This document shows, piece after piece, positions 2,881 to 54,680 of a DNA stretch of 64,000 bases. A program made the position numbers and the translations under genes. How positions within the stretch are numbered: the stretch's first letter is position 1; each line of letters starts with the position of its first letter. The stretch lies in the NCBI GenBank assembly GCA_018873225.1, contig JAEILZ010000002.1, positions 310,001 to 374,000 of the forward strand. The letters run 5' to 3'. The notes beneath the pieces were generated by a model that had not been told where the DNA came from, ran no database searches, and saw only the letters and a list, made by a program, of their open reading frames with translations. Source of the DNA: [Phialemoniopsis] sp. UDSM-2020 (lineage: Eukaryota; Ascomycota; Sordariomycetes; Thyridiales; Thyridiaceae).

Positions 2881-5193
2881 ATGGCTTCAGCATCAATCTC
2901 TGCGACACCGGGGTCGATGGTAGACACTCCGATCCGATCGTTCGGTGGATGCCATACAGTGAGTTGATTCTCGGCACAAATTTGGGTGCACCCTGTGCAT
3001 GTATCTTTCTTTGCTGATGGCTTCACTCGTTAGTGTCGCATCCGACATCTGAAGTGTGACGAGCGCCATCCATCCTGTCTCCAGTGCGTACGCGCCGGAG
3101 TCACCTGCGGAGGCTACGAGAAGAATGTCTTCTTCGACACTGATGGGCCCCTTGGCGACGAACCCGCTCGTTTTCGCAGGCCTGTCCTTACTATCAGTGA
3201 GCAGAAGCGCATGAGCAGATGGCTTACCTCGAATGTCCCATCCAGAAGGATGAACAGAATCATCTCACGCCTGGATGATGAGTACAACAAGGAGACAAAA
3301 AGGAAGCCAGACGCGCAAATTGTGCATGGGCCCTTTGCCGTTTTCCGATTGAGTCCATCCGAACAAGACACCCAGTCAACAGAATATGAATCAACACATG
3401 ATGAAAGTCCCGAAGACAGTAGCCAACAAGAGGCGACTTTGCATACCGCCCGGCCAGAACAAGTCCAGCGAGATCAGCCGCTCTCGCCATGGCTCGAGGG
3501 TATCATCAATTGTGTTGATGAAGAGCCCGTACCACCAGGTTCCGTCGACTTCCCATCCTTGGGCGGGTTAGAGGGCTATTCTACGCCAGATCTCAACTTG
3601 TTTGAGTCAAATATTTCGTCCTTCACCAGGAACCTAATCCAGCCATTGATCGAACGAGACAACGATGGGCACGATCCACAAATCACAGCGGAAGGCTTAA
3701 CAGCCCCTGACGATATCGTCTTTGAAGAGCCGATATTACTTGCTAGGCAGGACCAAGAATTGGAATACACGATGGACGATCGGGTGATACAAGATACCGA
3801 AAGCCATTCCCAGTCTCTATTGCCGACTAGCCTCTCATTCTTTGGAAACACAGAACAAACACCGCTACTAGCACATGCTGTTCCCCTGCTCCAGCACTAT
3901 GTGAGCACCGTCATCGCATCACTATCGCCATTCCGCCACAGCAACACTCCATGGCATGCTATATTCTTACCGCACATCAAAAACTGCCTGGCAACATACA
4001 CGCTCGGAGAAACGCTCGACGAAGCTAGCCTCACTGCATTCTACGGTACCCTGGCGATCAGCGCCTTCAGCCTCGGAGTCATGTCACAGTGCCAGGCATG
4101 GCGAGACGAAGCCGTGGCGTACCAGCAACAAGCCTTTGGTTATGCAAGGACACTCCTCACCGTGGCATGCAATAATCTTGAAGCGGCCAATTACAAGAAG
4201 ACATTGATGGCGCTCATCACTATGGCGCAAGCCTGCTTCTTCTTCGGCCGGCGCGAACAGACGGAAGGCTTCCTTCTCGAGGCCGAAAGGCTAGTGCGAC
4301 TACGAGGCCTTGCGGGGAAGAAGTCGCGCAAGGTCCGGATCCTTCACCACTGCTACGTCTACATGCGTCTTCTACACGAGAGCACATTCATTGCCCTACC
4401 CGGCGTCGAGTCCAATCATCGCAGGCAGGTGCGCAATGCTGTGGAGTGGAGCGAGCTCATGGTCCACATCAAGGACAACCTCACCTTTCGTCCACGACAG
4501 TGGACTGATCTGTCGGAGGAGATGAAGATCATTAAGACTCGCATTGAAGGGGAGAACGACTTGCACCTGTCAATACCAGGCACTTTCGATGCAACGATGT
4601 ATCCCGACATCTGGGGCATTCCAGAGCCCTGGTTCTTTTACTTGTCACAAATCATCCGTCTTGCCAACGAGAAAGAGTCTGCAGAACGGGATGACGGCTC
4701 TGAGGCGACCACACTTCGAGACTTCTCTCGCAGGGCCAAGAACCTCGAAAAGAGTATCGACCGCATGGAGCAACCAAACACGGAGCGCTGCCTGCCTGCA
4801 GTCATGCCTGGCATGCAGCAGGCGCTTTCCATCTACTTTTACCGCCGCCTCTACGACGTCAGCTCGTCAATCTTGCAGCCCAAAGTCATTGCCGTCCGTG
4901 ATTGGCTCTTCTGCTACGAGCAGGCGAACCCAGATCTACTGTATGGCTCATTTGGGCTGTTGTGGCCAGCTTTTATTGCGGCGTGCGAGGCGGATGATAA
5001 CGAATTGCAGGCGTCATTTTCTCAGTGGTTCCACATTGCTTCAAGGCGAACGGGATTAATCTGCTTTACCGAGTATTTGAGCGTTGCCGAGAGGGTGTGG
5101 GAAGCGAGACGCGGGCCTCAGGGGGACAACATCAGCTGGCTAGACGTTGTACGGGATAAGCTTCCGGGGGCTTTTGTTGCTGTGAACCCGTAG
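2881..5193 (+). CDS. Zn2Cys6 transcription factor with Fungal_trans_2-like region
   Basis: Two exons, 2881-2958 and 3034-5193, give 745 residues. The intron has a GTGAGT donor and a TTAG acceptor and lies inside the zinc finger, one codon before its second Cys. Joined, the finger has Cys at 24, 27, 34, 41, 44 and 51 (C-x2-C-x6-C-x6-C-x2-C-x6-C), beginning GCHTCRIRHLKCDE, a classic binuclear cluster. Without the intron the finger is lost and only a shorter finger-less frame from 3211 appears. The C-terminal two thirds (HYVSTVIASLSPFRHSNTPWHAIFLP and on) resembles the Fungal_trans_2/ARCA-type regulatory region. It is the only regulator among the permease, SDR and monooxygenase genes, so it is the natural candidate to control them; that is inference. 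Confidence 0.9.
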
Positions 5194-7773: not shown

Positions 7774-8529
7774 TGCTTCTCTATTTGACGAGGGCCGAAG
7801 AATTGGGGGAAACCACGGTGACAGGGACTGTGGACGCGATACCGACTCTGCATGATCATGTCAATGATACTGGCTGTAAAGCAGACTTAAGACGCTCATG
7901 TACAAACACATGGAAATGCCCTATCCCGATACAGAAATCACCTCCAAGTATCACCACCACTGTATCGTGAGGTTATCGCCGATACAAGACTTGCTCAGTG
8001 GGGAAACCTTCCCCTTCGGGCCTGATAGAGCGTACTCCACCCTGGGGATCCCCGCTGCCGGTCTGATGCGGGGAAGCGTATCGCCAGTTCGCTAGTGACT
8101 ACATGAGATAACGTCCGCCAGGGATAGCGGCTTCGATAGATCATTTGACCGAAAAGAAGCGTGGGGTGCCCCAGATGAGAAAGTGAGCCCGTCTTGGAGG
8201 TGTTACGGAATGGTTAGATCAGCCGATGTATCGGACGACCGGCTCCGTGACGTACGCCGTCGCTGGCCGGGTGGACATGGGCGATACTTTTGGCAAGACT
8301 GAATGCCGAAGTTTCCCCCTGGACATTGCCACTCCGCGATCGCAAAGTTCTATCTTTGAGCTGATTTGCGTTTCGAAACCGAGTAACAAGTCATTCAGTG
8401 GTAGTATAAGGCCTCTCACTTATTCTATCCTGTTCCGTTCGTTCATCACCCAGGCTATCTGACGAATTGGGTCTCTTTCATTCATTACCAGACATTACCT
8501 TACGACAACACCTCTGACACAGACACGAA
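7774..8529. promoter_or_regulatory. Divergent promoter, SDR / flavin monooxygenase
   Basis: Non-coding region between two divergent start codons. At 8232-8241 it contains CGG-ACGA-CCG, an inverted CGG pair with a 4-bp spacer of the kind bound by Zn2Cys6 dimers; a further CCG follows at 8245-8247. No coding frame of interest seen. Confidence 0.4.
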
Positions 8530-10200
8530 ATGGGTTCTCTGGGGATAGACCACGAGATCTACGATGTGTTGATTCTAGGTGCCGGTCTGTCTGGTCTTTG
8601 CACCCTTCACCATATTCGAGAGCGTTTTCCTGAATGGCGCGTTAAGGCGCTCGAGGCCGCTTCCGGTGTGGGCGGCACCTGGTTCTGGAATCGCTACCCA
8701 GGAGCACGCTTTGACTCTGAGTCCCTGTCGTACGGCTACTCATTCGACAAGGACATTCTGAACGAGTGGCACTGGAAAGAGGCATTCTCACCACAGCCCG
8801 AGACACTCAAGTACATCGAATTCGTAGCACAGAAGAAAGACCTCATTCGAGACATCCAGTTCAATACCCGGATCAAGTCTGCCCGATGGCAAGACAGCAC
8901 GCGCACCTGGACGTTTGTCGACGATTTAGGAAAGCAGTACGAGACGCGGTTCTTTGTGAGCTGCATCGGTTTCTTATCGTCGCCGACGGTCCCGAGCATT
9001 CCTGGGATCGAGACGTTCTCTGGACAGGCTTACCATACCTCGCGCTGGCCAGAGAACTTTGACATCAAGCGCGATTTTGCAGACAAGCGCATTGGCGTGA
9101 TTGGGACGAGTGCCACAGGCATCCAAACCATCACGGCAACAGCCAAGGAACCTATCAAATCCCTGCACGTCTTCCAGCGCACGGCAACCTGGTCAGCTCC
9201 TCTTCGCAACAGCGAAATCACAGAAGAGCAGATGGCCCAGTATCGCAAGGGGTACGATGACATCTTCAGACGCTGCTCTGAGACCTGGGGCTGCTTCCTT
9301 CACAACGCCGACCCTCGAAAGTCCAGCGAGGTGACGGATGAGGAGCGGATTGCTCTGTGGGAGAAGGTCTACGCGGAGCCTGGCTTCGGCAAATGGCTCG
9401 GCGTGTTCAGCGACACGTACACCGATCGAGCTGCCAATGAGCTATACAGCAAGTTCATGGAGAAGAAGATCCGTGAGCGAGTGCATGACCCCGTCGTTGC
9501 TGAGAAGCTGGTACCCAAAAATCATGGGTATGGCACCCGCCGCGTCCCGCTTGAGAGTGGCTACTTCGAGGTCTACAACCAACCGAACGTACATCTTGTA
9601 GACCTTCAGGAGACTCCGATTGACCATATGACCCCCAAAGGCATCGTCACAGCCGACGGAACAGAGCATGCGCTCGATATACTAATCTTTGCGACTGGCT
9701 TCAACGCCATCACTGGCGCCTTCAGCGACATCGAATGGCACGCCAAAGCTGACCGCCCTCTGCTCGGTCATAGTGACGAGCCAAAGACCTGCAATGCGAT
9801 CTGGCTCGACCACAGGCCGCGCACCTTCCTGGGCTTGACCGTGCCGAGCATGCCCAACATGATGATGGTCTTGGGACCACACCAGCCCTTTGGCAATGCG
9901 ACGCGCAGTATTGAGCACGCGGTGACGGTAGTCTGCGAGCTTCTGCAACACTGTCACGACAACGGACTCACGTACTTGGAGCCGACTGAGGATGCAGTGG
10001 ACCAGTGGACGCAGCATGTGGTCGAAAGCAGCAAGGGGCAGCTGTCCAACGAGATTGACAGCTGGATGACGGGAGTCAACAAGAACGTCAAGGGCAAGTC
10101 GGAGAGGAGCGTTGCACGCTACGCCGGGAATGCCATAGAGTATCGGCGTAAATGTGAGGCATGTAGGCAAGATGGCTGGAAGGGTTTGCAGTTTGCATGA
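8530..10200 (+). CDS. Flavin monooxygenase, Baeyer-Villiger type
   Basis: Single exon of 556 residues. The FAD-binding Rossmann motif is GAGLSG (17-22), followed by the BVMO signature GGTWFWNRYPGARFD (48-62). The Baeyer-Villiger fingerprint FxGxxxHxxxWP is present as FSGQAYHTSRWP (163-174), followed by the NADPH loop GVIGTSATGIQ (189-199). Length and order are normal for fungal type I BVMOs. Such enzymes insert oxygen next to a ketone (or oxygenate heteroatoms) using NADPH, FAD and O2. No membrane segment or signal peptide is seen, so a cytosolic enzyme is expected. Flanked by a divergent SDR and a co-directional DUF1330-like gene; substrate unknown. Confidence 0.95.
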   Translation: MGSLGIDHEIYDVLILGAGLSGLCTLHHIRERFPEWRVKALEAASGVGGTWFWNRYPGARFDSESLSYGYSFDKDILNEWHWKEAFSPQPETLKYIEFVAQKKDLIRDIQFNTRIKSARWQDSTRTWTFVDDLGKQYETRFFVSCIGFLSSPTVPSIPGIETFSGQAYHTSRWPENFDIKRDFADKRIGVIGTSATGIQTITATAKEPIKSLHVFQRTATWSAPLRNSEITEEQMAQYRKGYDDIFRRCSETWGCFLHNADPRKSSEVTDEERIALWEKVYAEPGFGKWLGVFSDTYTDRAANELYSKFMEKKIRERVHDPVVAEKLVPKNHGYGTRRVPLESGYFEVYNQPNVHLVDLQETPIDHMTPKGIVTADGTEHALDILIFATGFNAITGAFSDIEWHAKADRPLLGHSDEPKTCNAIWLDHRPRTFLGLTVPSMPNMMMVLGPHQPFGNATRSIEHAVTVVCELLQHCHDNGLTYLEPTEDAVDQWTQHVVESSKGQLSNEIDSWMTGVNKNVKGKSERSVARYAGNAIEYRRKCEACRQDGWKGLQFA

Positions 10201-34363: not shown

Positions 34364-35086
34364 GTTTGCGCGCCAACTAAATGGGGCTGTAGTCAATGTT
34401 GTCTTGCATTTTACAGATGCTTTGCAATAACAAGGAGTCCCATGGCTACGAACAAACGCAGAAGCTCAGCCGTCGTGGAGTTCACAGGCCTCCCAACCGA
34501 GCAAGAATGCCTGAGCTGGGGCTGAAGACGCCACATCCCGTATTTGTCCCGGGCACCTTCTTTGGTTTGCATAAGTGCAAAAAGTGGCAGCCTGTGCGAG
34601 CTATGCTTGTCTTCGTTGGTCTCGTCCCAGAAGGGAGCAATTGTTTGCGTGAAATCAATTCGGCATTGGTGCCTCTGGTGGACATCGTCTCTGACACATG
34701 ACAATGCCAGAGCCGACTAACACGTCGCCTCTATTCATGGGTGCGGGTCTTGTTAGTGTCGCCTTGGTAAGCAAGTTGAGTCAATCGACTTGCCGCAATA
34801 GCCGACGACTAAGGGATGAACCGAAGTTTCGAACAGGGACCTAGGTATCGCCGCTAAAGATGCGGCGCATCCCACGCTACTTTCTAAGGCGGCGGTGCTT
34901 CACTAAGGCCACATTACTTATGCCCCCATGCCGTAATCTCATGGATCGTGCGGGAAAAGCGGAACAAGCCAGGGATGCGCGATCCCCTCAACACTGCCTT
35001 CAAGTACGTCACCCGCAATTGCCCCGACTTCATTGCTGTCCAGACCCCGTAGTGGCTCCCTGGACTTCCTGACATTAACATAATCC
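34364..35086. other. Divergent promoter, HET protein / Zn2Cys6 regulator
   Basis: No gene seen. Small frames on both strands lack motifs. Confidence 0.4.
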
Positions 35087-36808
35087 ATGGATGTCCAAGC
35101 CGCTTCCCGCACGATGAACTCCACTAAACGCAAACGCTCACGGCTGGCCTGCAAGCCATGTCGAGAGCGCAAGAGGAAGTGCGACGGGCAGGACCCCTGC
35201 ATCACCTGTACGGAATGGGGATACAGCTGTTACTACGAGACTCCGAAGCGGCGGAGGACGTCCTTCCACGCAGGGCCAGCACATACCTCACCAGAGTCCC
35301 AGACCGGGCAGACTCTCCATTCCAATGCCGGGGCGCCAAGCACCGTCGAGTCTGACCATACCGGCATGGTTCGGCACCTCGAAGCCAATTCCGGGGCGGC
35401 CTTTGTCCGGAAGCTTGGCCTCAAGATGGATCCCTCTGGGGCTCCGAGGCTCAATCTCTTTGGTTGGAACGTCGGGGCAAGGCAACTGACCACCGAGCTC
35501 ATTCCCACTACTTCTGCTCTTTCAGTGGTGGAGATCACATCTCTTGAACACATGAAGACCCTGGCCCAGTTTTACTTTGACAAGCTGGCCCCATGTTACT
35601 GGTTCATCGACCGCAACCAGTTTATGGAGCATTTAGAGGCACGATGGAATTCACCACTGATGCCGGGCATATACGACGCCGTATTAGCTGGTGTCGCTGC
35701 CCTCGGATGCCTATTTTCACAACGCAATGTCACGATCACCGAGTTACATCTGATCCGCTCTGCTGCAACCACTCTTGATAATCATCATCTCACTGGTCCT
35801 CCATCTATGGATCTTCTTACAGGATGGACCCTCAGGACGATCTATCTCCGTCTTACGGATACCCCGCATGCTACGTGGATCGCGAGTTCGACCTTGATGC
35901 ATCTGGTAGAGGCATCCGGTCTCCACCCCAGGTCACCCTCATCAGTACTCCTACCTAGTGCGCACGGGAATCCAGATATCGAGAGAGGGCTCGTCGGTGT
36001 AGCCCATCACCTGAATACATGGGCCTCATTCGACCTCGGCCTGTCCCGCGTCTTTGCGCAGACCGACGAGTTGCCATTGCTCCCAGCTCCCGCAAATGCG
36101 ATGGACTACACAGCCGAGGTGATGGGCCTCTTACCAGTATCTATCAGTCTGGACCCTGGGCGATCTAGGGACGAGGCAGAATTGACAGCAAAGCTCATCA
36201 GAGTCCTCAATGGCTCACATACTCAGCCTCCTTCAGTTCTCGCCCAGTCTAATCTTGTCCTGTGCATCCTTCGCCGCATCCATAGCCAGAACCTGGATAT
36301 CTCGAGCGAGCTGGCAGAGCAAGTCCTCGCTTTGTTGAAGAAGGGACTCGGTTCGGCTCGCAGCATGGTCATGGAATGCTGTCCATGGCACCAAGTTGCG
36401 AACGTGCCCTTCCAGATCATCTGCGTCCTCTTGGTTCTGGACACGCGCTCGTCCCTAGCCTTGCTTCCGGAGGCGATGCAGACGATCAACCTCGTCGCTA
36501 CGACCTATCCGACCGACACCATGAAGGAGGCCTACAGCACGGCGTGTCTACTTGTCATGCTGCACCAGCAAAGGCGGAGATACGACATGGCCGTGTTTGG
36601 CGAGGTGCTCAACATGCATCAGCAAGAGACACAAATAGTCTCGTCGGATCAGCTTGCTCCTAACACGCAAGAGAATATGTGGCTCGAGGCGCTGGTAGCT
36701 GATTTTCCGGGTTTGCAGGGTGTTGATCTTGATCAGTTTTTGAATGCGGATATGGGCACTGGGTTTTCTATGTTGGGCGGCGTACCGGAGGGGTCGGGTT
36801 TATCTTGA
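35087..36808 (+). CDS. Zn2Cys6 transcription factor
   Basis: Single exon of 573 residues. The N-terminus has a basic stretch (TKRKRSRLA) and a zinc cluster with Cys at 22, 25, 32, 38, 41 and 48 (C-x2-C-x6-C-x5-C-x2-C-x6-C), followed by the linker YYETPKRRRTS. The middle region, with LAQFYFDKLAPCYWFIDRNQFMEHLEARW and LDLLTGWTLRTIYLRLTDTPHATWIASS, follows the fungal-specific transcription factor domain. The C-terminus is acidic and hydrophobic (DFPGLQGVDLDQFLNADMG), as in an activation domain. It precedes an MFS exporter by 460 bp on the same strand and may control it. Confidence 0.92.
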   Translation: MDVQAASRTMNSTKRKRSRLACKPCRERKRKCDGQDPCITCTEWGYSCYYETPKRRRTSFHAGPAHTSPESQTGQTLHSNAGAPSTVESDHTGMVRHLEANSGAAFVRKLGLKMDPSGAPRLNLFGWNVGARQLTTELIPTTSALSVVEITSLEHMKTLAQFYFDKLAPCYWFIDRNQFMEHLEARWNSPLMPGIYDAVLAGVAALGCLFSQRNVTITELHLIRSAATTLDNHHLTGPPSMDLLTGWTLRTIYLRLTDTPHATWIASSTLMHLVEASGLHPRSPSSVLLPSAHGNPDIERGLVGVAHHLNTWASFDLGLSRVFAQTDELPLLPAPANAMDYTAEVMGLLPVSISLDPGRSRDEAELTAKLIRVLNGSHTQPPSVLAQSNLVLCILRRIHSQNLDISSELAEQVLALLKKGLGSARSMVMECCPWHQVANVPFQIICVLLVLDTRSSLALLPEAMQTINLVATTYPTDTMKEAYSTACLLVMLHQQRRRYDMAVFGEVLNMHQQETQIVSSDQLAPNTQENMWLEALVADFPGLQGVDLDQFLNADMGTGFSMLGGVPEGSGLS

Positions 36809-44518: not shown

Positions 44519-46008
44519 TCACTGCGGCGCGTAGATAAAAGCAAGCTGGTCCACCTCATCTCCAACCTGCCCCATATATCCAATGATCTGCCACCCGGTC
44601 GGCGCGGTGAAAGTAGCACAGTCGCTCGTCGAAGTTCCCGCGGTCAGCGTGTTGCCCTTGCTAGTCGTAGCCTTGATGTAAAAGTTGCGCGTGCGGCTAC
44701 TGTATTGCCCCTGACAAAGAGTAGCTGACGTCCAGTACTCGCCGGATGCAAGGGTCAATGTCGCTTCGGTGCCTCCGGTACCGCCGTGAGCGAAGACAGT
44801 GCCATCGGTCAGCGTAAGACCAACCGAGTCCAGGCGCTTGGCACCGCGGAACGTCAGCACTTTGGCAGTAGGCTTTGTCTTTGCCGCCAGAGCGTCAAGA
44901 TCCGAGAACCAGTCACCGTGCGGGCCTCCAAAGTAATTTGACTGCTGGAAGTTGCCGCTAAGCGTGTAGGTAAAGTTGACCCCGACCGGGTTGTGGTCGC
45001 TCAGGATGTTGCCATCAGCCTGAAGAAACTTGGTAGACTCGTAGTTGAAGGACGTCGCTTCCAGCTTGAAGACGTTGCTACCGCGATAGAAGATCTTGTC
45101 GACGGTCTCGCAGTAGTTCGTCGTCGACGGGTTGTCACAGAGTATTTCTTGGGTAGGGATGACTCCATTCCGCTCGATCTCGAGCCATGCATCTGTCAAG
45201 CCACACTGGGTTGATAAGAGGTTGATATTGTCGGCAGTACGCGTGTAGCGGGAATTGGTGTCCCCCATTACAATCACGGCATTGCCAACAGACCAGGTGT
45301 CGATGTAATCAGCAACTTGTTGGATGTTGGCCGTGCGAGCAGCCTCATCTGCATCTTCCGTTCTGTCGCAACACCAGTCAGAATCAAGTGACATAGGTCG
45401 GGATCTCGCGACTTACCCGGCGTCTGTGTGGATGTTGTAGAAGTCGACAAAAACACTGTCTGCCACCTTGGCTCGCATAAAGGTAAAGCCCTTGGGTGTT
45501 AAGCAGTCGGCCCCGGACGCATCAGAACACTTGTTCCAGCGGACCCTCGTAAAGTCGACCCAGTCAAAGTTGGACAATGTGTTGAGCCCGTCGCCGACGA
45601 TGACAGTGCCCGATGTCGGAGTGCGATACGGGTGGTTGTCATTGGCATAGATGTACCTTGCCAGGGCGGGTCAGCCGGTGCACCACACAGAAGGCGACAC
45701 CACAAATGAACTTACGCATGGTAGGCAAAGTCCTATTTCAAGGTCTGTCAGTGAGAGGTCCTCCTGATGGCGATGGTAAATTCAACACTTACCTCCTGCA
45801 CGTGGATGACATCGTACCCGTATTTGGCGAACAAGGTTCCAATACTGCCGGCATTCGTCGCCTTGTCGCCGGGCACATCGTTGCTATTGAGAATAGCAGG
45901 AAGGCCAGCGACATTCATAGCGAGGACACTGAAGTCACCTCCATCTGCCACGGCCAGAGACGCCAGTGTCGACAACGCCGCGACTGCGGAAATAATTAAC
46001 GACTTCAT
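44519..46008 (-). CDS. Secreted endonuclease/exonuclease/phosphatase-fold protein with jacalin-like domain
   Basis: Four exons, 46008-45793, 45732-45716 (only 17 bp), 45656-45417 and 45362-44519, give 438 residues. After a signal peptide (MKSLIISAVAALSTLASLAVA) the EEP fold shows its metal and catalytic landmarks in order: MNVAGLP, VQEDFAYH (Glu completed by the micro-exon), NIHTDAGTEDADEAARTANIQQ, GDTNSRY and SDHNPVG. The last ~140 residues (GGPHGDWFSDL ... GTEATLTLASGEYW ... DEVDQLAFIY) resemble a jacalin-like lectin. A secreted nuclease or phosphodiesterase/phosphatase tethered to glycans is suggested; nuclease versus phosphatase cannot be told. The junctions around the 17-bp exon restore the conserved His after DFAY. 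Confidence 0.88.
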
Positions 46009-46685
46009 GATGCCACAGGTAGTCTCCACGACCTAGTGTTGGACGAAGATGCCTCGCAAGGTACGGAACCAGAGAGTCTGGAGCGGTGGACGAGGCCGCA
46101 GGGCAGCTTTTGAACCCCTTCGCCTTGTGAGATCACAAGTCTTTTATTTCCTCGTGAAATGAGCCATGGCCTCGAGTCGCAGCCGGCATTGACGACGCGC
46201 CATGTTCCCTGTCAACCCCACCAATAAGTTGCCCGTTTCGGTACTCATGCCGCGACTAGCACCGGTACAGATCCTTGATCGGCTCTTGTCGCTTGCAATG
46301 AGGTGTGATCCTACCTTCGCTCAGAACTGATCTTCTTGCCACGTGCATCGACTGGGCTGCTGCATGGAACCAACCTGGATAACGGATTTTGTCATGAGCT
46401 AAACACAAGGGGCTGTCTTCTGCAACGCACGATTGACGAGATCTCGATTGTGGGGTCACTGCGCTAAAACTTGGTCGCTTACCAAAGACAGGTGCTGAAT
46501 CAGAGACCGCGTCGGATATTGCGGCAGCGTGCAAGCAACAGTGGTCTCTAGGCCAATGTTGCTATTGATGGAAACAAGAACTATGAGCAGCGAACCTTCA
46601 TATAAAGATTGGAAAGATGTCGTCTATAGTCTTTAGATTGTTCCCGATCTCTAACATCTCCGTTGCTTCACCCTTGATCTACACC
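46009..46685. other. Intergenic, divergent promoter
   Basis: No gene. Promoter region shared by the leftward EEP/lectin gene and the rightward tautomerase gene. A TCTCCG hexamer at 46657-46662 matches a half of the palindrome in the NMO/MMSDH promoter, but it is short. Confidence 0.4.
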
Positions 46686-47170
46686 ATGCCGTTGCTTCGG
46701 ATCGACTTGATAAAAGGCGTACGCTCCCCTGCGGAGGTCCGAAACCTTGCCAATGTAATTCAGCAAGCGATGCTCGATCATTTCCACGCACCTCCTCGAG
46801 ACCGTTATCAGGTAAGATTTCAGCCATACTTCTATGCTTTCCGCCCTCTCCCATTCATTACTTTTCGGGTATAGCCTCTAACGCACGTAGCTTGTAGGTC
46901 ATAACCCAGCATGAGGACTACGAACTCCTATGCGAGGATAGCGGTCTAGGCTTCACGAGAAGCAAACATCTGGTGGTCATACAAATCTTCCAGCAAGGTC
47001 GAAGTGACGAGGACAAGAAGAACGTTTACAAGCAGCTTTACCAAAGCTTGGCAGAACACTGTGGCATTTCTGGCGAGGACTTGATTGTTTCATGCATTGG
47101 CAATACGCCTGTGGACTGGAGCTTTGGCTTTGGGGAAACTCAACTGCTGCGTGAAGGTTCGGCCGAGTGA
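46686..47170 (+). CDS. Tautomerase-superfamily protein, malonate-semialdehyde-decarboxylase-like
   Basis: Two exons, 46686-46811 and 46898-47170, give 132 residues. The chain starts MPLLRIDLI, so removing Met exposes the Pro1 that is the catalytic base/acid of the superfamily. Exon 1 ends in PPRDRYQ, with Asp at mature position 38 near the Asp used by malonate semialdehyde decarboxylase (MSAD); exon 2 holds EDSGLGFTRSKHLVVIQI, a single Arg (76) in the usual Arg region, and DWSFGFG (115-121), the Trp/Phe set of MSAD-type members. MSAD converts malonate semialdehyde to acetaldehyde and CO2; the related cis-3-chloroacrylic acid dehalogenase uses a Glu here not seen. No targeting signal. It converges on the MMSDH gene, 200 bp away. 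Family firm; MSAD activity is inference. Confidence 0.85.
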
Positions 47171-47371
47171 GTCAGTGACATGAGATCTACTTGAAAAATA
47201 GTTCAATTCAAAATTAGAGCAAAAGCATGAATGTACCATATATGGCAAAAGGATGTAGCATGTATGATAGCAATGCGCCAATCTTCACGTTATGTCTTTT
47301 AAGAGAAATCTAAGCAAGAAAGAAACCGACGCCAAATTGACGCTCACCCATTGATCCAACTTATATGAGAT

Positions 47372-48986
47372 CTACAAATGCGACGGCATGGACATTTGCT
47401 TGCCTAAGGCCGCAGCATTCTCCCGCCGCCACAAGCTGGTTACTGTCTTCTGTTGTGTGTAAAAGGCCAGACCGGACTTTCCATAAAAGTTGCTGGCACC
47501 TCCTCCTGCGATGCTCTTCTTGTTTCCCGTGAACGAGAACATGGGTAGGGGAACCGGCAGTGGTACGTTGATGCCCACTTGTCCAGCCTCGACAGTCTTT
47601 TGGAAGTACGAGGCCGCCGAGCCCGATTGGGTGAATAATGCCGCTCCATTTCCGTACTGGTTGTCATTCAGGATCTGGATCGCCTCATCCAGCGTCTTCG
47701 CAGCCACACACACCAGGACCGGTCCAAATATCTCCTCCTTGTAGCATGTCATCTGAGTATCGACGTCTGTGATAACTGTCGGTCCCACCTACACAGATAT
47801 GTCAGTGCTTGGCATCAAGAGTGTATCAAAAAATAGGCCTTACAAAGTTCCCGCTCGGATAGCTGTCCACCTTGAACCCTCTGCCATCCAGAATAATCTT
47901 GGCTCCCTCCGTCTCCGCACTCGTGATTAAGGACTCGATCCGTTTCTTAGCTTCGGGGCTAATGACAGGTCCCAGATCAACCCCCTGTTCGAAACCTGCC
48001 GACACGACCAGTTCTTTGGCTTTGTTGACTATGTCGGGGATCCAATCGGCGGTCTCTCCGACGGTAACGACAACACTCAGTGCCATACATCTCTGGCCTG
48101 CTGCACCAAATGCAGCACCGATCACAGAGTTGATTGCCGCGTTCTTGTCAGCGTCAGGAAGCAGCACCGCATGATTCTTTGCCCCCAAGTTGGCTTGCAC
48201 TCTCTTTCCGTTGGCTGAAGCCCGCGTGTAGATGTACTCGCCCGCTTGGTTGCTGCCGACGAAGCTGATAGCCTTGATGTCTGGAGAGTCGAGGATGAAG
48301 TTGACAGTATCCTTTGCGCCGTGAATGATGTTCAAAACCCCGTTCGGTAGGCCTGCATCCCGGGCCAACTCCGCCAGGATCATAGCTGCCCCGGGATCCC
48401 GCTCCGACGGTTTGAGCACCATGCAGTTACCGGTCACTATTGCAAGGGGGATGCACCACAGGGGGATCATGGCGGGGAAGTTGAAGGGACAGATCGCAGC
48501 GACGACTCCCAAAGGCTCACGGTAGCTTCTCGTCTCCATATCGCGGGATACCTCGAGCACTTCGCCCGTGAGCTGAGTTGTGATGCCGCATGCGGTCTCG
48601 GCAACTTGCAACCCACGGTGAACATCTCCTCTCGCATCCTTGAAAGTTTTGCCCTGCTCCAGGGTAATGGATGCTGCTAAGCGGTCCCAGTTGGCCTTGA
48701 TCAAGTCGACGAACTTGAATAGAATCTGCTGTCGAGCCAGAATGCTCTTGGATCGCCAAGCTGGAAACGCTTTCTTGGCTGACTCCACAGCTGCTTTGAG
48801 CTCCGCATCCGTTGACTGGGGTACACGGGTGACGAGAAAGCCAGTAGCCGGGTCGTGCAGCGGGAACCATTGTGTTGCACTCGAGGGGGTGAGCTCGTTA
48901 TCGATGAAGTTCTTCGTATCCTGGATCTGTGACAGTCGCTCATGGTCCATCTTGATAGCCTTACTGACAGAAGATAGTGAAGACAT
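47372..48986 (-). CDS. Methylmalonate-semialdehyde dehydrogenase-like aldehyde dehydrogenase with PTS1-like end
   Basis: Two exons, 48986-47844 and 47788-47372, give 519 residues. It follows the CoA-acylating MMSDH branch: NFPAMIPLWCIPLAIVTGN, KPSERDPGA, FVGSNQAGEYIY, ANLGAKNHAV and the catalytic Cys in GQRCMAL, ending with SFTGNKKS and the YTQQKTVTS tail usual for this family. These enzymes turn (methyl)malonate semialdehyde plus CoA into propionyl- or acetyl-CoA. The C-terminus is MPSHL; SHL fits the PTS1 peroxisomal consensus. The N-terminus lacks the long Arg-rich presequence expected of mitochondrial MMSDH, supporting a non-mitochondrial paralogue. Divergent from the nitronate monooxygenase gene across 685 bp and convergent with the MSAD-like gene. 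Confidence 0.92.
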
Positions 48987-49671
48987 GATGATGTTGCCGA
49001 GGGAAGTTATGAGTATGAGACTAGAATGGTGATGCTTGTCAACTTAGCCAACCGAAGGAGAATGCAGAGGTTAATCGAGATATCTCATTGCCAGAGTATT
49101 ATAGAGCGCTCCATTAAGTATCATCTATCATCAACAGGTAATTCACAGGTTTCTCTGACAACATTGGTGGACAGCATCACAGTCTCAGTGTCTGCAATGT
49201 TGCAGGTGCGGGTATTGCGGGTCGTTGGACTGCGTTGTCAGGGATAATGCCACCACAGATCTCCGCGGAGAAACACAAGCCTAAACCGGCACCACCCAAA
49301 GAACCCAGCGAGATATATCACTGTATGAGATCATCTCCGCTCAGGTGGTTGGAGGTAGTCGCGGATAGAATCGCGGATGGCTGCGGGTAGAACGGGAACG
49401 CGTGGCAAATTGCGACCTGCCCATGGGGATGTCGGGGATCATGTCATGGATTCTTCCCCGCAGGTGGGGTGACTTGGAATGGGGAAATACCGGGAACTGT
49501 CCCCTTCTTGGTCTTGACCCATGGGGAAGCCTTCGAAAGCCAAGAGCGTTATAACTTTGCAAAGTATCGCCAAACAACCACTCAGTCCCAATGTCCAGGC
49601 AGACAGGTGTTCTTCTGACTTTGTAGACGGTCACATCGCAAACAGGTCTGTACTGCACTGTCTAGTTCGCC
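48987..49671. promoter_or_regulatory. Divergent promoter, MMSDH / nitronate monooxygenase
   Basis: Shared upstream region of two enzymes of the proposed pathway. It holds a perfect 12-bp palindrome TCTCCGCGGAGA at 49260-49271 (CCG and CGG halves abutting), another TCTCCGC at 49333-49339, and a direct repeat TCGCGGAT at 49359-49366 and 49371-49378. These resemble Zn2Cys6 recognition triplets arranged in inverted and direct orientation. No TF gene is adjacent. Confidence 0.5.
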
Positions 49672-50742
49672 ATGGGATCCATCCTCCAGAATCACTACCC
49701 ATGGGTCTCGCTGCCGTTAGTCGCTTCGGCCCCTATGGCCAAAGTGGCCATGCCCAAACTAGCGGTGGCAGTCTCCAAAGCTGGAGGCTTGGGCTTCATA
49801 GCCGCAGGCTACCACAGTGACGCCGTTGAAGACTTCTTTGAAGAAGCAACCGAGCTCCTCGCCAAAGAAAAGATTGCTGTGGATACAACTGAACAAGGAA
49901 TCACCAAGCTTCCTGTCGGTATTGGGTTCATCACTTGGAGTGCTTCACTTGACGATGCCTTGCCCGCCTTCGAACGCTTTTGGCCTTGTGCCGTCTGGCT
50001 ATTCGCGCCTGCAACTGAATTTCAGGATTTACAGCCCTGGGCAACCCGGATACGAGAGGCCACACACGGGTACACCAAGATCTGGGTGCAAGTCGGATCC
50101 GTTGCGGATGCACTTGAAGTGGTCAAACTCATCAAGCCCGACGTGATCGTCGTCCAGGGAATTGACGCTGGAGGACATGCGTTAGCCCGCGGAGCCAGCA
50201 TCATCTCGCTTGTGCCCGAGGTGGTGGATGCCTTAACGGACATATCGCAATCAAAAATCCCCGTTCTGGCCGCCGGCGGTGTCTGCGACGGCCGAGGAGT
50301 CGCTGCTTCCGTGGCCCTCGGTGCACAAGGCTGCGTGATGGGCACTCGATTCCTCGCAAGCCCCGAATCGCTTGTTCCCCTTGGCTATCAACAAGAAATC
50401 GTGCGAGCAACCGACGGCGGGTTAAGCACTATCAGAACCACTATTTACGACAAGGTTCGAGGTATCGATGCTTGGCCCAAGGCTTACGACGGGCGTGGCA
50501 TCATCAACAAGACCTACACGGATATGAGTGGAGGCCTTTCTGACGACAGAAACACTGAGCTTTACAATCAGGCTCTTCTCGAGGGCAACAAGGGCTATGG
50601 ACCAGATGGGAGGGTAGTTACATATGCTGGGACGGGTATTGGCCTGGTCAAGAAGATTCAACCAGCGAGTGAGATCGTCCTTGCCACCAGGCGAGAAGCT
50701 CGTCAGATACTGCAGATGAGCGCAAGGCAAAGTAGACTGTAA
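49672..50742 (+). CDS. Nitronate monooxygenase (2-nitropropane dioxygenase family), PTS1-like end
   Basis: Single exon of 356 residues. FMN-binding TIM-barrel features of nitronate monooxygenases (NMO): the start APMAKVAMPKLAVAVSKAGGLGFIAAG, the conserved GIDAGGHALARG with the presumed catalytic His, VLAAGGVCDGRGVAASVALGAQGCVMGTRFLASPES (phosphate-binding end of the barrel). NMOs oxidise alkyl nitronates, notably propionate-3-nitronate (from 3-nitropropionate), to an aldehyde plus nitrite/nitrate; from that substrate the product is malonate semialdehyde. The C-terminus QSRL ends in SRL, a strong PTS1 peroxisomal signal. It is divergent from the MMSDH gene (ends SHL) and followed by a convergent acetate-type transporter. 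Family assignment is firm; the substrate is inferred. Confidence 0.9.
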   Translation: MGSILQNHYPWVSLPLVASAPMAKVAMPKLAVAVSKAGGLGFIAAGYHSDAVEDFFEEATELLAKEKIAVDTTEQGITKLPVGIGFITWSASLDDALPAFERFWPCAVWLFAPATEFQDLQPWATRIREATHGYTKIWVQVGSVADALEVVKLIKPDVIVVQGIDAGGHALARGASIISLVPEVVDALTDISQSKIPVLAAGGVCDGRGVAASVALGAQGCVMGTRFLASPESLVPLGYQQEIVRATDGGLSTIRTTIYDKVRGIDAWPKAYDGRGIINKTYTDMSGGLSDDRNTELYNQALLEGNKGYGPDGRVVTYAGTGIGLVKKIQPASEIVLATRREARQILQMSARQSRL

Positions 50743-51342
50743 ATGATAGTATCCAAAGATTACTGAGTCACTATCTGGAAGACAAAGATGCTTCCTCCAA
50801 CCGTTTTGAATTATCAGTGCTTTCAAATAGAGTGAATATACTCATCATATACTTCATTACAAAAGTCTCCCCGTTCATGATATCGTCACGGAATGGCAAT
50901 GGGTGGTGAAGATTTGGCGCATGACCTCACGAGAAAACACCTACAGGGGTTACAATATTTAACGGTAACAGGAGAACTCCAGCAGTTTATTGGCCAAGAG
51001 ATAGTCTTATTTCTATTAGGACACCGACATTCCAGCTGAGTTGTTTGTTTTAGTTTGGCAAACGCAGATATTAAGCTCAAGATGACAAATAGACGAACAC
51101 AGTGTGTTCACGAAACAAAAGAAGCTAATTGCATATACCCAACCCAAAAGAACCAATGAAAGTCCGCTCATCTGCATCTCAATTCGTTTACTGTTTTGGG
51201 GTTTTCCATTGCCCCTCTCTTTGAACATAAGTGCGTGACCGGCATGGCCCTGGACAACATTCCTCAAATGGTCCAGATGGTCGGGAGCATATCTCGAGAC
51301 TGCACGAACTGAGGCCGGAGCCAGCTACGGTCATCGATTAGA
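50743..51342. other. Intergenic between convergent genes
   Basis: No gene; AT-rich 3' flanks of two convergent genes. Confidence 0.45.
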
Positions 51343-52478
51343 TCAAACGTTGGTAGAGTCTTTTGCGGCCTGGCGTTGGCTTTTGCCCTTGACCAATCGA
51401 CTAAGGTCGCCGACAGGCAGGGAGTAGGGAAAGTCAACGGCCATGAGCAGTTGCGATACAAGGATGTACCAGACTGGACAGACCAGTATGAAATTGAGTG
51501 CGCCAGCGACCTGAAGGCGACAAAAGATGAGTCGTCAGCAACAACCTCGTGACAACTCGCGAAGAATGCCCATTGCAAATCGAGCACGACACCGAGCAAA
51601 CAAGTCAACTCACAATCTCAAGTTTCCTGGCGTAGATATGTTCGCCCAGAGCGATGTAGAAATACACTGCCGAGTACATCGAGTAAGCTAGCGTGAGGAA
51701 GAAGAGAGCCAGGAAAAAGCACAGATTGGTCCGGAGGGAGCAGATCAAAAAGATGGCAGTAATCAATCCTAAAACCACGTAGTACAGACCTATTCGCCTT
51801 GATGTCAGTCCATGTCTAACGAGGTATCCGTTGCAAACGCATTGGTACAATGCTTACCGACTGTAGCGTGGTATTCGGGTGTTGCAATACCGTCGAGGGT
51901 ATCGCCTGTAGGGGAGTAATGGACACCGACCCCAAAGGCTGGAATAAGCGCGGCACCTTGCGCGAGCCAGAATGCGCCTTGACAGAACAGGGTTACTATG
52001 ATCCAGACAGTGAACCAGTGAATTCGGGTTCAAGTACTTACCATAAACAAGGAACACAGCACAGGAGAAGGTGTTTCCCAAGATCCACTCTCCAACGCCG
52101 CCGATCAGTTGGAGGATACCGCCGAAGAATATGTACACCGCGCTGGGATGAGACCAGATCAGTGTCCATACGTCTCACAAACTGTTAGATTAACAAGGGA
52201 TCATACAGAATAGCTCCACCGTCACCGCCAGCACCCCGCCAGCCCATATGGAGCATGGCATTCGGAGTGGCGGCTGTCAAGAACCCAATGAGGGCTATTG
52301 GAGTTGGATTTCCGAAGGTACGACGGAGGTCTCCCGCGATGGCAGTCTTGGGACTGAGATAAAGCTTCTCGAATGATTCGCGAGACATAGGAAGTAGGAC
52401 ACTCTCTGCTGTTTGAGTCCGATGAATGATGTCTCCCTCATCATTCCCGGTGGCATACTGGTTCTTTGTATCGGCCAT
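51343..52478 (-). CDS. GPR1/FUN34/YaaH-family acetate (or ammonium) transporter
   Basis: Five exons, 52478-52207, 52142-52042, 51977-51858, 51789-51614 and 51510-51343, give 278 residues. A hydrophilic N-terminus of about 70 residues leads to FGNPTPIALIGFLTAATPNAMLHM, the NPxP family signature, then YIFFGGILQLIGGVGEWILGNTFSCAVFLVYGAFWLAQGAALIPAFG and further segments, six in total. Relatives include yeast Ady2/Ato proteins and fungal acetate permeases AcpA; all four introns are GT/AG and the frame is continuous. It would move acetate (or ammonium) across the plasma membrane. Placed right after the NMO, it could handle acetate derived from acetaldehyde/acetyl-CoA; alternatively it is an unrelated neighbour. 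Confidence 0.92.
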
Positions 52479-54140
52479 TATAACGGTTGGGGGGTAAACA
52501 AGAATATTGTTGTGGGAATGAAAGGTTGATTAGATGTGTCTGGATATTGAAGAAGAGGAAGAAGGATTCAAGAAAGACTTGAGAAGGCGGCCGGCTATAC
52601 ATAAGGTTTTTGATCGCAAGTTCGACATGACAGATAGCGCCGCGTCTCAACGTCTGTTTGCGACCCCGCACGATCCTATCTTGCTCCTCGTGTTCCCACT
52701 CTACCCGCTCTCCCCATGGGGTTAACTTCCCAAGCGGTGAGGAGAAGATAAGCTACAGCTGAAATGGTGCTTCTCTCCCTGGATATCTCCCAATATCTCC
52801 CAAGCTTACGTGCTTTTACACTTACGTGTCGCTTTGTCCTACGGTAACGTCCAGTGTTATCTCAACATGCTTCGGAGTCGAGGCCTTGCTTTGATATTTT
52901 TCGCGTTGTCCGTCAATAGTCGTGTTAGAATCAGAAGAATAGAGCATTGGGTTGACAGTCATGAAGCAAATAACATATTCTCAAGTGTTTCATTGCTACT
53001 TGGTTGGCGAATTCAGACAGGTGTGGTGCATGTATAGTTCACTTTGGTTCGAGACTGCAATGAGCCAAATCAAAACTACGACATATCTGACGATCAAAGC
53101 TACACGCCAAGTACGACACGATCAAAGTAATAAATCACCGCGTGACTTGACCTGCAGTATCACAACGAGCCTTTGCTCTCTGAGTATCGCGATTGTCGTG
53201 ATCCACTTCTTATCATTGAGTTTAAATCACTACAGGTATTATAACACCAACATCCATCTTTCCATACGAGTCAGCGTCGAGCACACGGGCATCATGTTAT
53301 CTGAAAACACACTGGCACTTTCGATATGGCGACCGTGTATCGCGGCTTGTGCAGATCCTCCTACTCCACCTTCCCCAACCTTCAAGTTGAGGGCCGCATT
53401 TGCCGACCATAAGACCGCAGCAGCCGCTTCGCGCTCCAGTCAGTTTCCACATTGTTCTGCTCAACATCCCTGCCACTGGGCAATAGCACTACGAAATTCA
53501 CTAGGGTGTTAAATCTCAAGCTCCTTACGTGGCATTGCACCATCTCCACGGCCCGCGGAGAAGCAGTATCTCTCCTTATCACCCCTAGTGTGACCAAAAG
53601 CTTCCTCACGTTTGCTCTCCAAGGCTAGCTTGTACCATGTCTTGAACTCACAGACCACGGTTCAGACGGTGTGTCGGGTCGATAACGCAGGCCGTCCTCA
53701 TTGCAACTCCATATTGTACCCCACAAGGGCGAAGGGGTCCCAAGATTTGTAGGCAATTCGCAGCCGCAAGATCCGTTTCTTGAGACAACCATGACAGCAC
53801 AACAGGTTGACGTCTCTGCAAGAGATCTTGACACGAAGAGCGCGTCTGGGACGGCGAATCTGCAACTTCAAAGTCGCCTATTGATACCAATGTTGCTCCG
53901 CAAACGACCTATGGTCTTACAGGCAAGTACAGTCTTATCCTCGAAGATGTGAACCCCAAGGCATGCGACTTCAGATAGCAGATGGATACATATAAGACTC
54001 GAACAAGTACGGCGGCTCCCCGAGTCTCCCGTTCGTGAGACTGGAATCAGATCATGAAATATTAAAGCCTTTGATCTGCGTAAATGGCCTAGTCGTCTTT
54101 TACTTCCATTGACACCTACTGACGAACGGGGATAATGGGC
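52479..54140. other. Gene-poor region
   Basis: Contains the transporter's promoter at the left. No other gene could be supported; frames of 60-190 codons show no motifs. It continues into a stretch with decayed genes. Confidence 0.4.
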
Positions 54141-54680
54141 TTAGCCACCGATTGGATATGTAGCCTTGATGCTTCGGCAAGCACCGTCCAGATAATCCCC
54201 AGTCATGTTCCTGACAGCTATGTCCTTGTATCCGAACTCTACGAATTGACCGTGGTCTTCCGCGCTCGAATTGAATACAGGCCATACATTCATCTTCGAG
54301 ATCCTATCCCTCTTGAGGAAATGCAAGAAGTAGTCTTGCATCGCTTTCGATGTGTTGATTTCAGCCTGCGGTATGGGCCCCGCCATTTTGCTGTACATGT
54401 ACGTTCCAAATATCATCAGAAGATCGGTCCAGTGGTATGCCCAAAGCCACGGTTCGGGGCTGATGCTGGTCCAATTGCCTTAGTACGAATTCAAATTAGT
54501 TGCACGAGACAAAATGCTGTTGGTTGTGAGAAAGAACCGCCTTCCTCTTGGTATACAACGACTGAACTCAGCCACACAATGTTGGTTGGAGCCTGGCCAG
54601 AATCTCAACACCACTATAACTATGCTAGTTGAGATTGCAAACGCTCTCGGTGATCTTACTGGCGCAGAGGCAATGAACAC
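54141..54680 (-). pseudogene. Broken type-B carboxylesterase (C-terminal part)
   Basis: The minus strand gives, near 54480-54141, NWTSISPEPWLWAYHWTDLLMIFGTYM and on through TSKAMQDYFLHFLKRD ... WPVFNSS ... EFGYKDIAVRNMTGDYLDGAC. This is the C-terminal region of type-B carboxylesterases/lipases, including the catalytic-His segment (AYHWTDL). Immediately upstream a stop (TAA at 54482-54480) precedes the stretch, and the preceding CASKITESVCNLN, which fits the upstream part of the family (54667 downward), lies in another frame and also runs into a stop. No N-terminal Ser-active-site domain is found further upstream. Hence a truncated, frame-broken remnant. An intron could explain one break but not the missing two thirds. 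Confidence 0.7.

Follow-up and report, generated by a model that had tools for sequence, protein, structure and literature searches.

Four neighbouring genes, spanning positions 46686-52478 of a 64-kb stretch of the [Phialemoniopsis] sp. UDSM-2020 genome (C4:310001-374000 in an assembly of 44.18 Mb and 11 contigs; "the window" hereafter means this whole stretch), encode in order a malonate semialdehyde decarboxylase (MSAD)-type tautomerase on the plus strand, a CoA-acylating methylmalonate-semialdehyde dehydrogenase (MMSDH) on the minus strand, a nitronate monooxygenase (NMO)-family flavoenzyme on the plus strand and a GPR1/FUN34/YaaH carrier on the minus strand. Judged from their sequences, and with a probability of roughly 0.58, these genes form a fungal catabolic and detoxification cluster with malonate semialdehyde at its centre. 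A fungal cluster that would dispose of 3-nitropropionate is of interest because this compound is a toxin widespread in plants and fungi. A preliminary description of this DNA had named the four families with their positions and order, together with two peroxisome-type C-termini, and all of these were confirmed with hand-made splice models, Pfam and the TIGR01722 profile (SRL for the NMO, SHL for the MMSDH). The features are as follows.

46686-46811 and 46898-47170, plus strand: MSAD-type tautomerase, splice model (PF14552 Tautomerase_2, 100 bits; PDB 2aag, E 1e-27).
48986-47844 and 47788-47372, minus strand: CoA-acylating MMSDH, splice model (TIGR01722, 684 bits; Aldedh, 465 bits).
48987-49671, no strand: 685-bp intergenic stretch from which the MMSDH and NMO genes diverge (CCCATGGGG at 49420 and 49518; AGACAGGTG at 49601).
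49672-50742, plus strand: NMO-family flavoenzyme (PF03060, 118 bits; outside class I in the tree).
complement(51343-52478), minus strand, five exons: GPR1/FUN34/YaaH carrier, splice model (PF01184, 104 bits; PDB 5ys3, E 1.1e-7).

According to the proposed scheme, a peroxisomal NMO-family flavoenzyme would oxidise a 3-nitropropionate species, either the nitronate or the neutral acid, to malonate semialdehyde with formation of nitrite or nitrate and peroxide, and a peroxisome-targeted MMSDH would then combine malonate semialdehyde with CoA to give acetyl-CoA and CO2. Malonate semialdehyde escaping this reaction would be decarboxylated to acetaldehyde by the MSAD-type tautomerase, which is probably cytosolic, and the carrier would move acetate or a related small acid. 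The substrate, the compartments, the co-regulation of the genes and the cargo of the carrier are the parts of this scheme that we infer.

The tautomerase gene has a single 86-bp GT..AG intron and encodes 132 residues, whose only strong relatives in the PDB are malonate semialdehyde decarboxylases (2aag, 42% identity; FG41 MSAD, 3mjz, 41%). A cis-CaaD identity was rejected, there being no such chain among the 16 PDB matches up to an E value of 1. Its Met-Pro start supplies the N-terminal proline expected of a malonate semialdehyde decarboxylase, and in an alignment of 85 rows, comprising the window protein and 84 bacterial loci, Pro2, Asp39, Arg77, Trp116 and Phe118 are invariant (85/85), the last four corresponding to 2aag Asp37, Arg75, Trp114 and Phe116, whose catalytic roles we take as given; conservation of the DWS stretch is partly by construction, since 80 of the rows were retrieved with a scan pattern that included it. 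The window protein thus shares with the known decarboxylases the N-terminal Pro, the Asp, one Arg, the Trp and the Phe, but differs from 2aag at Arg73, where it carries Gln75; FG41 MSAD sides with the window protein in having Gln, as do 18 of the 85 rows in all. In the tautomerase tree the window protein, a long branch, groups with 17 bacterial rows, all actinobacterial (support 97/93), one of which has an MMSDH 77 bp away and three of which have one at 4.8-6.4 kb.

The MMSDH gene, with one intron, encodes 519 residues ending in PSHL (tripeptide SHL). It scores 684 bits against the TIGR01722 profile, for which the curated cut-off is 448.5, as the proposed CoA-acylating family requires, and its top PDB match is 8xxq, a mitochondrial methylmalonate/malonate-semialdehyde dehydrogenase with which the segments GQRCMAL (Cys) and QANLGAKNH (Asn) align; we presume for the Cys, and for the Asn that is Glu in hydrolytic aldehyde dehydrogenases, the roles usual in the family. 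Three further copies in the same genome share 68% (C11), 65% (C6) and 54% (C8) identity with it where they match, and identity to the compared bacterial stretches is at most 47%. The C11 paralogue begins with a long Arg-rich extension and ends in SMPTMH, whereas the window copy is without the extension and ends in SMPSHL; the C6 copy ends in NMV, and the C8 copy showed no intact end. If the targeting rules that we assume hold, including the consensus for the type 1 peroxisomal targeting signal (PTS1), the window MMSDH looks like a duplicate moved from the mitochondrion to the peroxisome.

The NMO-family gene is intronless and encodes 356 residues ending in SRL. In a tree of 51 rows, which includes 4q4k (presumably PA4202) and in which both fungal rows are long branches, the window protein clusters with a paralogue on C8 and with 14 bacterial rows, among them the Methylobacterium nodulans and Rhizobium plasmid enzymes (98/97), apart from 4q4k, to which it is 27% identical. 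A provisional sequence of the Neurospora crassa class II NMO, a lead only, is 38% identical to it over 358 residues and so nearer to it than 4q4k. PMC11510023 places Met18, Asn67 and His176 in the active site of PsNMO, with Tyr297 and Lys305 near the C-terminus, and states that class II NMOs accept neutral nitroalkanes too; activity of a fungal NMO on propionate-3-nitronate is named in the title of a cited reference. Met22 and His169 of the window protein, which match PsNMO Met18 and His176, are invariant in 11 rows, and the region of Tyr297 and Lys305 aligns poorly. Single-sequence fold prediction gave a mean predicted local distance difference test score (pLDDT) of 36.5 and was not useful.

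The carrier (278 residues, C-terminus TNV) exceeds the PF01184 Gpr1_Fun34_YaaH cut-off of 25, at 104 bits, and its NPTPIALIGF segment aligns with NPAPLGLMGF of 5ys3, which we take to be the NP-A-P-type signature of the family.

Genome-wide, the tautomerase has two matches, both its own exons; the MMSDH is one of 4 genes, the NMO family occupies 6 places above cut-off (fragments of one gene counted once), and the carrier family numbers about 8 genes. A hand calculation that supposes uniform and independent placement, includes the window copies and concerns families picked after the fact gives a rough chance of ~4e-9 that the other three families would all lie within 6 kb of the tautomerase. Because some bacteria hold the same kinds of genes together, this neighbourhood is probably meaningful.

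The bacterial comparison began from genome contigs scanned with the tautomerase alignment; the best 80 of 130 relatives were kept, and every one of their loci was searched with a tblastn panel, some of these loci being shorter than the full flank. An NMO lies within 4 kb of the tautomerase in 18 of the 80 (Pseudomonas, 9; Bacillaceae, 5; Janthinobacterium/Massilia/Paracidovorax, 3; Alcaligenes, 1), and by distance 14 NMO matches fall under 1.5 kb, 6 at 1.5-4 kb and 3 at 4-10 kb. An MMSDH is found within 4 kb in 16/80 loci, and both enzymes in 7/80, all from Pseudomonas, in the order MMSDH-tautomerase-NMO in six and NMO-tautomerase-MMSDH in one. ActP-like symporters lie 5.2-7.8 kb off in four of these seven loci, and two of the other three end at a contig edge. 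IolC occurs within 4 kb of the tautomerase in 11/80 loci (L042, L044, L046, L048, L049, L052, L056, L087, L104, L105 and L106), eight of which also hold MMSDH, and two (L045, L086) have a class III aminotransferase match next to the tautomerase. The bacterial comparison as a whole suggests that MSAD-type tautomerases have a role in removing malonate semialdehyde in inositol as well as nitropropionate breakdown, apparently trading places with MMSDH.

Plasmids supply a second set of loci. Ten regions were opened from the best 40 of 346 NMO records and the best 40 of 215 tautomerase records, those of M. nodulans and Sphingomonas having been chosen for an NMO and a tautomerase evident together in the record lists, and the other eight coming from the NMO list. 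M. nodulans has LysR, NMO, tautomerase, DUF485 and the acetate symporter ActP in a row, and Sphingomonas has flavohaemoglobin, NMO and tautomerase. Two of the eight NMO-picked regions, from Rhizobium leguminosarum and Sinorhizobium numidicum (the latter unannotated), contain a tautomerase in the order NMO-MFS-tautomerase. In Bradyrhizobium CW1 an MMSDH is present beside an NMO-MFS pair that is 68% and 75% like the Rhizobium pair, and no tautomerase was found. A LysR-NMO-MFS backbone is thus common to Rhizobium (L029:7824-10678), with the tautomerase, and Bradyrhizobium (L135:2423-8392), with MMSDH, in an apparent functional swap; such an exchange would be expected of two enzymes that consume malonate semialdehyde as alternatives, and it fits both acting on that compound. 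Among the remaining regions, those of Leisingera (L133:4761-6942) and Phaeobacter (L134:4605-6774) carry consecutively a GST, an NTF2-like protein, a short tautomerase of the 4-OT type and an M. nodulans-type NMO, and those of Methylophaga, Microvirga (unannotated) and Pantoea have neither tautomerase nor MMSDH by annotation or panel.

Two promoter sequences, both picked after looking, provide weak evidence that may hint at co-regulation. AGACAGGTG occurs three times in the window (46486, 49601 and 53015), always on the plus strand and once per cluster promoter, and a 9-mer common to all three cluster promoters arose in 1/150 Markov shuffles. CCCATGGGG has three places in the window (49420, 49518 and 52712), every one of them within the MMSDH/NMO or the carrier promoter and none upstream of the tautomerase; over the genome its strand matches number 205 + 194, vs 75 + 69 for a reversed control. 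Among the matches listed, one genomic CCCATGGGG copy (C2:405595) stands ~0.9 kb away from a further match to the carrier family (C2:406511). Control by NirA through CTCCGHGG, which we take to be its motif, was rejected, since the window holds 12 copies vs 7.08 expected and 6/100 shuffles reached at least 12; the palindrome is nonetheless present between MMSDH and NMO.

Several observations weigh against a 3-nitropropionate-fed malonate semialdehyde cluster. The window NMO is, on its tree position, outside class I, and the class I Asn (PsNMO Asn67) is absent from it, FNVN of 4q4k aligning with PVGIG; because of this placement, its action on propionate-3-nitronate is something that we infer. Among the 22 loci with a linked tautomerase and NMO (the 18 above and four plasmid loci), 16 NMOs belong to the class I clade, the five of Bacillaceae to another and that of Alcaligenes to a third; the window type occurs in only three (M. 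nodulans, R. leguminosarum and S. numidicum), each time beside a class I-type enzyme. Gln at the 2aag-Arg73 position is found in none of the 22 NMO-linked tautomerase rows (17 Arg, 5 Lys), and the 17-row actinobacterial clade has no NMO-linked member. Forty-eight of the 80 bacterial loci show no NMO, MMSDH, IolC or class III aminotransferase within the ranges examined. In a survey that sampled 249 genomes of the order to which a Rhizobium locus belongs, with at most 8 candidates scored per genome, the tautomerase was found at 27 places in 24 genomes, and at 0/27 did it lie within 10 kb of an NMO among the NMO matches listed. The tautomerase ends in SAE, with no peroxisome-type signal, and three other NMO-family frames in the genome end in SRL, AKL and SKL; SRL alone thus says little about the cluster. 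The MMSDH by itself would also fit valine, inositol or beta-alanine catabolism. Lastly, the best PDB match of the carrier is weak (5ys3, E 1.1e-7), and since its likeness to the solved succinate-acetate permeases is distant, acetate would be a family-level guess.

Separately, the same order-wide survey contained five genomes (G041, G118, G149, G200 and G222) in which a window-type NMO directly adjoins another NMO gene.

The alternative that survives best is a malonate semialdehyde module fed from another source, in which MMSDH, tautomerase and carrier would serve the catabolism of beta-alanine, inositol or the like, with the NMO clearing unrelated nitroalkanes or nitro-oxidative damage products. 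The tautomerase's bacterial proximity to IolC and class III aminotransferases, the position of the window NMO outside class I and the link between NMOs of other fungi and nitro-oxidative stress (PMC9323177) all speak for it; the divergent arrangement of NMO and MMSDH, 685 bp apart, and the recurrence of NMO-tautomerase or NMO-MMSDH linkage across several bacterial groups make it rather unlikely. Less probable still is that the four genes are chance or loose neighbours without a shared pathway, as their separate promoters, mixed strands and the lack of NMO linkage in the nearest bacterial tautomerases might imply, given the ~4e-9 estimate and the meeting of the same partner families in bacteria. 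That the fungus acquired an entire bacterial nitropropionate operon by transfer, which would explain partner families the same as those of the Pseudomonas MMSDH-tautomerase-NMO loci, is strongly disfavoured by the MMSDH's closer likeness to its own-genome paralogue (68% against at most 47%), by the grouping of the NMO with a second copy from this genome and with a different bacterial subfamily, and by the tautomerase's place within an actinobacterial clade without NMO links.

Returning to a cluster centred on malonate semialdehyde, its likeliest origin on these sequences would be independent assembly around the same chemistry and not the copying of one bacterial operon, because its tautomerase clade lacks NMO links and the order-wide survey shows no NMO linkage among the matches listed. 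A fuller version, which we advance tentatively, is a eukaryotic, peroxisome-based 3-nitropropionate cluster assembled independently from an NMO outside class I that may take the neutral toxin directly, a duplicated MMSDH of mitochondrial type re-addressed to the peroxisome and a malonate semialdehyde decarboxylase of actinobacterium-like source, converging on the bacterial partner families.

Beyond the cluster, two genes lie to the left, one of the tannase family and one at 44522-46010, directly left of the cluster, in which endonuclease/exonuclease/phosphatase-type (EEP) and jacalin-like lectin domains were recognized in a Pfam scan covering 44522-45412. The sole right-hand stretch scanned near the cluster, 54123-54632, matched no Pfam family. 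Zn2Cys6, HET and Fungal_trans_2 frames are also present in the window and, together with the introns, mark it as fungal; the two Zn2Cys6 transcription-factor frames, at 3034-5193 and 35084-36808, do not adjoin the cluster.

No fungal gene cluster of this kind is described in the titles and abstract openings that searches of Creative Commons-licensed PMC literature listed, and 0 papers were found there that join nitronate, malonate semialdehyde and tautomerase. One fungal comparison is the npa cluster of Aspergillus oryzae, likewise 3-nitropropionate-related but biosynthetic, which, according to PMC12383939, relies on npaA and npaB and makes the compound with an amine oxidase and a decarboxylase; amine oxidase and decarboxylase Pfam names were absent among the window stretches scanned, which amount to less than a full annotation, and an FMO-like frame lies at 8518-10200. 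There is likeness also to bacterial nitropropionate degradation, in which, according to PMC9552603, NMO-type oxidation yields 3-oxopropanoate (malonate semialdehyde) and MMSDH converts this to acetyl-CoA; the genes of 3-nitropropionate-degrading Pseudomonas form an operon near a regulator, and the strain of that paper has pnoA alone and unexpressed, another flavoenzyme being proposed instead. This route, and those bacterial clusters that unite the tautomerase with an NMO, an MMSDH or an acetate symporter, argue for malonate semialdehyde as the shared intermediate proposed at the outset. The bacterial genes (NMO/pnoA and MMSDH) and the fungal set share the NMO family, a CoA-acylating MMSDH and the 3-oxopropanoate intermediate, and in both the NMO and MMSDH genes are neighbours, divergent and 685 bp apart in the fungus. 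Unlike the bacterial genes, the fungal set has an NMO of another subfamily, an MMSDH nearest to a paralogue in its own genome, introns, separate promoters and two peroxisome-type C-termini.

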